Origin: Candidatus Binataceae bacterium
GTDB lineage: Bacteria; Desulfobacterota; Binatia; Binatales; Binataceae
Length of the DNA stretch: 64,000 bases
Assembly (NCBI GenBank): GCA_035650475.1
Contig: DASRHP010000012.1
Location: 918,059-982,058, forward strand
Direction: 5' to 3'
In this document: one piece after another, positions 30,465 to 37,260 of the stretch
Numbering within the stretch: the first letter of the stretch is position 1
How the letters are laid out: each line of letters begins with the position of its first letter
Translations under genes and position numbers: made by a program
Notes under the pieces: generated by a model
The model's database searches: none
What the model saw: only the letters and a program-made list of their open reading frames with translations
What the model was told of the DNA's origin: nothing

Positions 30465-32714
<2,250 letters not shown>

Positions 32715-32953
32715 GGCCGTTATTTTAGCAGGTGCGTCGAGCGGGCGGCGAACAGCGCCGCGCGCCTTTGCGCACAGCGCGCCATGCTGCATCCCGATGC
32801 GGTCGGCAAAACGCGGGGCTCCGCGAGATTGCGTACGGCAAACCGAACGATCCAGAATTTAACCGTCAGCCCGATTATTCCGTCCCGCTGATCTTGAACG
32901 CGCCGGCGGCCGGGCGGCACGCCGCCCGATCCGCGATCTCGCGAGGTGACCCG

Positions 32954-34075: not shown

Positions 34076-34400
34076 GCGCGCCGAACAGCCGATCAAGTCT
34101 GACGCCTGGATGGAAAAGCCCACCTCGAAGGTAGTTGCGCTGTTGACGCGTTCGGCGAAAAATCGGCGAATGCCCAGTTGAAGGTATCGTCGTTGCACCA
34201 ATTACGGTGGCGCGTTGCACCTTTGCGTATTGCCCAAGTCTGGTCCGTCCATCTTTTGCCCGTTTGATCAGGCAAAAACGAGCACCGCGACGGCCAAATT
34301 GAGTGGCATCGGCCATGCTTTTGACGACAGAGTCGTTGTCGCTTCGTCAGGAATGATTCCCGGGGCCCAGCGGCGACCGGGGAGGAGGCAAAAACCTATT
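34076..34400. other. Intergenic spacer with no recognised gene
   Basis: These 325 bases are lower in GC than the surroundings and contain two copies of GTTGCACC about 20 bases apart near 34193-34222. They must hold the promoter of the histidine-rich protein gene, but no convincing -35/-10 pair could be chosen. No tRNA or small RNA is evident. Confidence 0.5.
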
Positions 34401-35159
34401 ATGAGGAGAATGCTGAAAGAACTGCTGATGGCTGCAGTGCTGACCTTGGCCGCAGCACCGGCGATGGCGCAGTCAAACGCCCTTCAGAACTACTACGGCT
34501 TTCTCGCACAGCATCCAGAGCTACAAAACGCGTTGACTGGTAACCCGAGCCTCTACCGCAGCCCGGGCTTCATGACCCAGCATCCGACCCTTTGGTCGTA
34601 CCTCCAGCAGAACCCGAGCGCCTACCAGGCGATGCTCGCCAAAGCGCCATCCTATCGTCCGGACGGCAACGCCTACGCGCTCGCTAATTTTCTCCATTCC
34701 CATCCGCAGGTGGACCAAGCCTTGGCAGTGAATCCCGCGCTATCGACTGACCCTACCTTCCTCGCGCGGCACCCCAATTTCAGGCGTTTCCTGCAAAAGC
34801 ATCCGGCCGTGCAGCGCCAGATGGCCGCTCGTGGGTGGAGCTTCAATCAGTGGCAGCGCTATCATCGATGGCAAGAGCGTAGCCAGTGGCGCGACGCCGA
34901 CGATTGGAGCGATCGCGACTGGCGCGACCAATGGAGGCGTCAGCGCGCCCTCGAACAGGCTGAGGAACGCGAGGAGCATGAGGAGTTCGAGGAGCATGAG
35001 CATCACGACCACGGCAAACACCTCGGCTGGTACAAGCATCACGGCAAGCACCGCGACGACGGTGACGACGATGCGCCGGGCGCGGCGAACTACGCTTGGC
35101 ACCACGGCCATCACGGCGGCCATGCGCACCACGGGCATCACGGACACGACATGGATTGA
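34401..35159 (+). CDS. Secreted histidine-rich HP/NP-repeat protein, function unknown
   Basis: This 252-residue protein has a clear signal peptide (cleavage after A-M-A, residue 23). Four 23-residue-type units start at F34, F57, F97 and F120, each with His-Pro four residues in and a second Asn-Pro or His-Pro exactly ten residues later; 17 residues are inserted between units two and three. A Trp/Arg-rich and then acidic region follows (about 144-205), then a C-terminal tail with many H-H-G and H-G-H runs, likely to bind Zn, Ni or Cu. The gene stands alone between a weak-spacer region and a strong terminator. I do not recognise a named family. Confidence 0.8.
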   Translation: MRRMLKELLMAAVLTLAAAPAMAQSNALQNYYGFLAQHPELQNALTGNPSLYRSPGFMTQHPTLWSYLQQNPSAYQAMLAKAPSYRPDGNAYALANFLHSHPQVDQALAVNPALSTDPTFLARHPNFRRFLQKHPAVQRQMAARGWSFNQWQRYHRWQERSQWRDADDWSDRDWRDQWRRQRALEQAEEREEHEEFEEHEHHDHGKHLGWYKHHGKHRDDGDDDAPGAANYAWHHGHHGGHAHHGHHGHDMD

Positions 35160-35629: not shown

Positions 35630-36295
35630 ATGGCAGGGAGAAGTCGAGGAAAGGGGATTGTGGCCCTGTGCCTAGCAGCCTCCGTTGGCTTGGCGGGCTG
35701 CGGGATGACGCAGGAGCAAAAGGACTACACGATCTATGGGGCCGTGGCCGGCGCCGCCCTTATCGGCGGCGGTATCGGTGGCGGAGTTTACGCCGCCGAT
35801 AACAGCGATAACTGGCCCGCGATCCCGGCCGGGATCGTCGGTGGCGCAATCATCGGCGGAATCATCGGGTACCTGATGGCGCCCGCGCCGCCGCCTCCGC
35901 CACCCCCTCCCCCGCCGCCGCCTCCTCCGCCTCCGCCGCCGCCTCCACCAGCGCCGGAGAAGTTGATCCTGCGTGGCGTGCATTTCGACTTTGACAAGTC
36001 CAACATCCGTCCGCAGGACGCCGCGGTGCTGGACGAGGCCGCCGACATCCTCAAGGCGCATCCGAACGTGAACGTCAACGTAAACGGCTACTGCGATGCG
36101 ATCGGCACGGTGCGCTATAATCAGAAGCTGTCCGAGCGGCGCGCGGACGCGGTCGTCAAGTACCTGGCCGACCACGGCGTCGCTGAGAGCCGGCTGATTC
36201 CGCACGGCTACGGCAAGACGCACTTCGTGGCGACCAACTCGACGCCCGAAGGGCGCGCCCAAAACCGGCGAGTCGAGCTGGTGCCAATCCAGTAG
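35630..36295 (+). CDS. Pal/OmpA-type peptidoglycan-associated lipoprotein
   Basis: This 221-residue protein starts with a lipoprotein signal (G-L-A-G-C, Cys24), then a glycine-zipper-like region (G-A-V-A-G-A-A-L-I-G-G-G, G-G-A-I-I-G-G-I-I-G). A linker with 21 consecutive prolines follows, encoded by mixed CCN codons. The C-terminal OmpA domain has V-H-F-D-F-D-K-S-N-I, L-S-E-R-R-A and N-R-R-V-E-L, which bind peptidoglycan. It should anchor the outer membrane to the wall. The usual tol neighbours are absent. The linker would need elongation factor P. Confidence 0.9.
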   Translation: MAGRSRGKGIVALCLAASVGLAGCGMTQEQKDYTIYGAVAGAALIGGGIGGGVYAADNSDNWPAIPAGIVGGAIIGGIIGYLMAPAPPPPPPPPPPPPPPPPPPPPPAPEKLILRGVHFDFDKSNIRPQDAAVLDEAADILKAHPNVNVNVNGYCDAIGTVRYNQKLSERRADAVVKYLADHGVAESRLIPHGYGKTHFVATNSTPEGRAQNRRVELVPIQ

Positions 36296-36350: not shown

Positions 36351-36490
36351 GCCGTACCGCGGCTGACCGGCGTGTGCGTCCGCTTCCCTCCAACGTCCCT
36401 GGCGCACCGGATTGACATGCCCAGGCGGCGTGGCTCCGCCTTCGGTTTACAGCGCGATTCTTCGCTTACGCGGGCTTGAGGCTGTACCTC

Positions 36491-36518
36491 TTTACAGAGC
36501 TTCGCGGCGCGCAATAAT
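36491..36518 (+). promoter_or_regulatory. Promoter of the secreted-protein gene
   Basis: TTTACA (36491-36496), a 16-base spacer and AATAAT (36513-36518) lie 31 bases before the ATG at 36550, giving a leader of about 25 bases that contains a GGGGGG ribosome site. Confidence 0.55.
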
Positions 36519-36549
36519 TGTCGTGCAACCGGAGTTTCGGGGGGCGTCT

Positions 36550-37260
36550 ATGGGCTATGTTTGGCGGGGATGCACGAGGGCCTTTTCGACAGCCGTCGGC
36601 ATGATCGCACTCGACCTGTTCCTGCTTCCACTCGCCGCAACAGCGCAGTCGCTGCTACCTCACCCCCCCTCGGCCCCAGCTGCGGCGCCAACCTCGGCAG
36701 CATCCACGAAGCCGACAGTCCCAGGCGCCTCGATCATGGTGCCCGCCGCCGCAACGGCCCGCTCTTCATCGACTGTCGCGATGACCGGCGCAACTTCGCC
36801 CGCCCTTCCCTCTGGATCTCAACCCGCCCCCAACGCTTCCGCTGCCAAGGCGGTGCTTAAGGGCGTGGACGGCCAGAGTATGGCGGCGACCGCCGAGAAG
36901 CTCAGTCCTCTGATGATGCGCGCGCTCAAGCAGTTCGAGATCGCCAAGGCCTCGTTCGCCGGCTTCTGCGAGGACTGGCATCGCAAGCTCGCCGAGCGCG
37001 AGGCAGACAACCTCGCCCACATCACTTGGAAGCTTCAAAACGGGATGGAGACCGGCACCTATGTCGGCTATGGCCCGATCGAAAGCTGCACCTGCAAGCA
37101 GGCGCACAACGGCGTACCAATTGGCGAACTGACCTACAAGGAGTTGGACAACACGCTAACCGGCAAGACAATCGAGGAGGCCTTGCACGCCAAGCCCTCG
37201 GTGACCACAGTCCCCACGCGCGAGATCTTCAGTTGGGACAAGGGCAAGTGGTACTACTGA
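36550..37260 (+). CDS. Secreted protein of unknown function
   Basis: This 236-residue protein has a signal peptide (hydrophobic core near residues 15-30, cleavage after A-T-A). An Ala/Pro/Ser/Thr-rich linker of about 80 residues precedes a C-terminal domain of about 130 residues containing F-C-E-D-W-H-R-K-L and C-T-C-K. The domain has three cysteines and many charged helices; I do not recognise it. The gene has its own promoter and a very strong terminator, so it is transcribed alone. Confidence 0.75.
   Translation: MGYVWRGCTRAFSTAVGMIALDLFLLPLAATAQSLLPHPPSAPAAAPTSAASTKPTVPGASIMVPAAATARSSSTVAMTGATSPALPSGSQPAPNASAAKAVLKGVDGQSMAATAEKLSPLMMRALKQFEIAKASFAGFCEDWHRKLAEREADNLAHITWKLQNGMETGTYVGYGPIESCTCKQAHNGVPIGELTYKELDNTLTGKTIEEALHAKPSVTTVPTREIFSWDKGKWYY

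Follow-up and report, generated by a model that had tools for sequence, protein, structure and literature searches.

What might be the role of a protein in which His-Pro and Asn-Pro pairs recur at regular distances and which ends in a His-rich tail? This question is raised by a gene of an uncultured soil bacterium of the Binatota, considered here within a window of 64,000 nucleotides, that is, the whole stretch of DNA that was analysed. The gene, referred to as the HP-domain gene, encodes a secreted protein with two small helical domains, and its layout is as follows (window positions):

34381..34388, + strand: ribosome-binding site GGAGGAGG, 12 nt 5' of the ATG, read in the sequence
34401..35159, + strand: HP-domain gene, 252 residues, without Cys
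34401..34469, + strand: signal peptide of the Sec type, residues 1-23, probable cleavage after AMA, recognized by eye
34476..34655, + strand: HP domain 1, residues 26-85 (units F34 and F57 of the earlier note on this DNA)
34665..34844, + strand: HP domain 2, residues 89-148 (units F97 and F120 of the earlier note)
34845..34934, + strand: Trp-rich stretch (residues 149-178), degenerate version of the 31-residue Trp module found in syntenic relatives
34935..35156, + strand: tail rich in acidic residues and His, residues 179-252

The start codon is backed by the strong ribosome-binding site GGAGGAGG at the distance given above. Secretion and a His-rich C-terminus, both proposed in the earlier note, are borne out by the Sec-type signal ending in AMA and by the 10 His among the last 23 residues (19 in residues 181-252). 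In the copy from the sister genome (L005), AQ ends at residue 24, as in the window protein. Between the two genomes, pN/pS amounts to 0.34-0.43 across the domains and the Trp-rich stretch, which are thus constrained, and to 1.58 in the signal peptide, which is unconstrained. Moreover, the tail stretch HHDHGKHLGWYKHHGKH is almost identical in the sister genome, where HHDHGKHLGWYKH is conserved as well.

The HP and NP pairs of the window protein lie at positions 38/48, 61/71, 101/111, and 124/134, and the four 23-residue units of the earlier note, each starting with Phe and carrying HP four residues in and NP or HP ten residues later, are indeed present. When the protein was shuffled 50,000 times with its HP/NP dipeptides kept intact, four +10 spacings were matched in 21 shuffles and four +23 spacings in nine, while neither two 0/10/23/33 quartets nor four +63 spacings ever appeared; the spacing is far above chance expectation. 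However, the real unit is not the 23-mer but a domain of about 60 residues, present twice and made of two unequal 23-residue halves, the distance from F34 to F97 being 63 residues and the four units pairing into two domains. Among relatives, which carry one to four domains per protein, the pattern reads FxxFLxxHPxVAxxLxxNPxLIxDPxYLxxHPxLxxFLxxHPxVRxxL. Autocorrelation of the profile of 105 distinct domains from relatives (119 before the removal of duplicates and of domains that filled fewer than 50 columns) peaks at lags of 33 (2.01), 23 (1.03), and 10 (0.93); the lag-23 value was matched by one of 5,000 column shuffles, and the two halves are related. Periodicity in homologues, on which the earlier note had staked its repeat, is therefore kept.

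In the AlphaFold2 models (pLDDT 81.6 and 86.2), a domain consists of six short helices, and every H-P or N-P falls on the junction of two helices; the first half is followed by two short helices and the second by one longer helix, so that the halves are not equivalent. The earlier note had suggested a repeat scaffold with a metal sponge attached; a repeated fold, here helical, that is followed by a His/Asp-rich tail is consistent with these models, but a purely open scaffold is not, the modelled domains being compact six-helix bodies. Since every motif sits at a modelled junction, all of them resemble helix caps. His precedes Pro in 98, 90, and 88 of the 105 domains at motifs one, three, and four, respectively; at motif two this place is taken mainly by Asn (68) or Asp (19). 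These counts were redone with a profile on loci that BLAST or profile searches had located, as the first domain set, collected by regular expression and DNA pattern, was biased towards HP; some of these loci duplicate genes on pattern-picked contigs, and the profile in turn derives from pattern-picked loci together with the window. Ser, Thr, and Gly are absent from the three His positions in the 105 domains, which suggests a role beyond that of a generic cap. Nevertheless, the most frequent substitute of His is Asn, a replacement that suits capping better than ligation and speaks against a strict role as ligand.

On sequence grounds, the nearest described family is that of the mycobacterial hemophores, which we take to be Pfam PF16525 (MHB) and NCBIfam TIGR04529 and TIGR04530, with Rv0203 as PDB 3MAY. 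Among 45 single domains searched at E<=0.01, 31 match TIGR04529, a hemophore-related family (best 2.3e-5), and 23 match MHB (best 6.7e-6); reversed domains never match MHB (0/45), and no other NCBIfam family is matched by more than one of the 45. Domain 2 of the window protein alone matches TIGR04529 with an E of 1.4e-4. However, the whole window protein falls below the cut-offs of both MHB (23.9 of 27.4 bits) and TIGR04529 (25.4 of 32 bits). The relatives above the Pfam cut-off (L009, L014, and L017 out of ten, and also L063) and the NCBIfam cut-off (five of eight) are all multi-domain, and tandem copies inflate scores, to the extent that even the unrelated RecA_C and BRK exceed their cut-offs in L063. 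In the host genome as a whole, PF16525 has no match at E<=0.01. One mycobacterial plasmid record contained no MHB match. Because of the scores below both cut-offs, the empty host-genome search, and the tandem inflation, the protein is better regarded as a distant relative of hemophores than as a member.

An alignment with the 3MAY sequence brings out YLDSHP and HFEANP, with an E of 0.86. The haem residues of Rv0203, Tyr59, His63, and His89, correspond with a single offset of 34 to Y25, H29, and H55 in the chain of 3MAY and fall on the Tyr and His of YLDSHP and the His of HFEANP. The window domains carry Phe at the position of the haem Tyr (F34/H38 and F97/H101) and hence do not have the Tyr+His pair. 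They share with Rv0203 a small, secreted, helical protein type, the aromatic-L-x-x-H-P motif ([YF]LxxHP), and a second Pro-capped motif downstream, but differ in their tandem arrangement, the Trp/His tail, and an additional NPxLxxDPxYLxxHP stretch between the motifs. Moreover, Cys is missing from the window protein and from all 105 domains, in contrast with the disulfide of Rv0203 mentioned in PMC7516205. Comparison of folds yielded no usable match with Foldseek plus VIA, without 3MAY among the matches listed, and no significant Foldseek match among those listed; sequence searches of solved structures returned nothing for the window protein, L009 matches only at E>=0.14, and, with alignment A3, spectrin at E>3 only. 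A pyruvate carboxylase fragment obtained with alignment A4 (E 0.025) was regarded as chance. The remark of the earlier note that it knew of no assigned function holds for this family itself, for which none was found in the literature (nor was anything on hemophores in Acidobacteria), but it has to be amended by the nearest described family being the hemophores.

HP-domain proteins are a large multi-copy secreted family. Profile A4 matches 34 of 41 Binataceae genomes and 47 of 148 genomes of the class, 13 of the latter lying outside Binataceae; in a sample of the phylum, four of 247 genomes match, all within Binataceae. BLAST detects the family in 29 of 57 relatives. A DNA-pattern scan of genome contigs returned 36 stretches, with a family ORF in 28 and none in eight (L038, L040, L054, L056, L057, L059, L064, and L070). 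The 28 named contigs with an ORF include five labelled Acidobacteria and one Betaproteobacteria, whose genomes hold one to four HP domains each. Searches of plasmids and phages gave no convincing copy: the DNA pattern was absent from viral contigs, tblastn of L009 gave nothing in plasmids, and a 64-residue domain search reached plasmids only at E>=0.5 and phages only at E>=4. PHROG gave no match. The host genome itself encodes further single-domain HP proteins on contig C9, about 0.6 kb apart (L002:1345-1797 and L003:1372-1749), in which YP replaces HP at motifs three and four. In L046:3234-3845 (the same gene as in L018), the HP-domain gene runs across two frames through a frameshift or an assembly error, and it was excluded from the pools.

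The genomic surroundings divide the relatives into two groups. In the window, they comprise:

30465..32792, - strand: uvrB, synteny marker
35630..36295, + strand: OmpA-family protein, probable lipoprotein, conserved neighbour (Pfam OmpA, 88.9 bits; synteny)
36412..37260, + strand: secreted protein without Pfam match, conserved neighbour

An MscS-like gene, recognized by eye, lies between uvrB and the HP-domain gene, and no haem or metal genes were noticed near the latter. In a synteny survey of 89 partly overlapping loci, the OmpA-family gene adjoins the HP-domain gene in the window and at eight distinct loci (L036, L043, L052, L066, L068, L071, L072, and L073). At all of these except L052, which shows none within its 8 kb, uvrB is nearby, and the secreted third protein is shared by the window, L036, L043, L052, L068, L071, and L073. 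In the OmpA-family neighbour of the window, about 20 prolines in a row precede the OmpA domain. In the second group, eight distinct loci adjoin an ECF sigma factor that is 60-71% identical between loci (L009, L010/L049, L014, L015/L061, L018/L046, L026, L047, and L053); in the DNA examined, seven of the eight also have an anti-sigma gene and four a DUF3106-like gene. Tandem HP paralogues beside the ECF sigma factor include those at L047:5004-6909, L053:1097-3367, L049:1-1957, and L061:5142-7512. The ECF-linked paralogues likely form an envelope-stress or ligand-responsive unit. In the regex domain set, Tyr+His (YxxxH) is found in 16 of 19 ECF-linked versus three of 17 uvrB-linked domains. The six ECF-linked proteins measured end 6 to 10 residues past the last domain; ten uvrB-linked proteins, that of the window included, have Trp- and His-rich tails of 56 to 273 residues, and a His/Asp tail is present in most uvrB-linked relatives.

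The Trp-rich module also occurs on its own. As a 31-residue repeat, GDYDDxHxWRPAxWWWxxxPxWVxxHHPEW, it is strung together 8-10 times in large secreted proteins of Binataceae, and shorter forms occur as well:

L152:1297-3093, + strand: Trp-repeat array
L146:1-1782, - strand: Trp-repeat array
L154:1-1713, - strand: Trp-repeat array
L144:976-2550, - strand: Trp-repeat array
L151:1189-1647, + strand: short Trp-repeat form, in the host genome
L140:1255-1623, + strand: short Trp-repeat form

Single copies are found in small proteins that end in a His/Asp stretch. The repeat profile matches 27 of 148 genomes of the class, all Binataceae, and at E<=1e-4 it does not match the Trp-rich stretch of the window protein itself. 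Four Trp-repeat proteins gave no Pfam match, and no PDB match of note was obtained.

The reading favoured here, though tentatively and at somewhat less than even chances, is that the window protein is an envelope ligand- or metal-buffering protein built on a hemophore-like domain. The protein would be exported by Sec to the envelope. In the models, six short helices pack into a compact bundle in each domain, and the H-P and N-P pairs close one helix while capping the one that follows. The specific profile matches and the shared [YF]LxxHP suggest that this domain could be a distant relative of the hemophore domain. The domains may hold a ligand close to their conserved aromatic and His residues, the Trp/His/Asp tail, which is probably exposed, may gather divalent metal, and the conserved OmpA-family neighbour points to the outer envelope as the likely place of work. 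Since the Tyr position is Phe in the window copy, a metal or another compound seems a likelier ligand than haem bound in the manner of Rv0203, which is unlikely and doubtful for this copy; the ECF-linked paralogues are better candidates for haem binding.

The position of every motif at a modelled helix junction and the exchange of His, Asn, and Asp at the caps would also fit domains with a structural or client-binding function, like STI1/XPC-binding domains, in an envelope chaperone or adaptor that acts with the conserved OmpA neighbour, the likeness to hemophores then being a convergence of helix caps. Such a function is rather improbable. Seven of the 45 single domains match XPC-binding (best 8.4e-5), fewer and more weakly than they match hemophores, and the absence of Ser, Thr, and Gly from the three His positions of the 105 domains speaks against mere capping. 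The STI1-like XPC-binding family stays below its cut-off, with the window protein unlisted at E<=5 and ten relatives reaching at most 20.1 of 26.4 bits. The resemblance to the domains of Rad23 and ubiquilin lies in NP-capped short amphipathic helices and weak matches, but few members of the HP-domain family match. Proteins of the Rad23/ubiquilin type are intracellular proteins of eukaryotes and are not known to carry the conserved His.

Alternatively, the His/Asp tail, as the metal sponge of the earlier note, could do the work, the domains just spacing, anchoring, or multimerizing it. The 19 His of the tail, the retention of HHDHGKHLGWYKH in the sister genome, and the recurrence of His-rich tails among uvrB-linked relatives agree with this idea. 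However, the length and sequence of the tail are highly variable, the ECF-linked relatives do without it, and the domains are under constraint; the idea is unlikely. A superhelix of leucine-rich-repeat variants is far less probable still, although the window protein scores 33.8 bits against Pfam PF25591 (LRV_2), above the cut-off of 27, and the repeats are similar in length and share NP. The best stretch spans just 22 of 61 model positions, at E<=0.01 the family is matched by only six of 26 relatives, the sister copy remains under the cut-off, and the models give separate compact domains instead of a superhelix; among the single domains, five of 45 match LRV_2 (best 1.3e-8).

Returning to a buffering protein on a hemophore-like domain, a broader and distinctly speculative scenario, unlikely as it stands, is that Binatota and some Acidobacteria possess an expanded, tandem, polyvalent hemophore-like lineage. 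Its ECF branch would keep Tyr+His in nearly every copy, while the other branch, that of the window, would have changed Tyr into Phe or Trp, acquired Trp modules as well as a tail that binds metal, and taken up a different ligand. If the relation to hemophores is true, haem- or porphyrin-carrying domains would reach uncultured soil phyla in tandem form, and a function would be available for a family with several copies in many of these genomes. Moreover, the synteny groups with and without Tyr would offer a direct contrast for binding.
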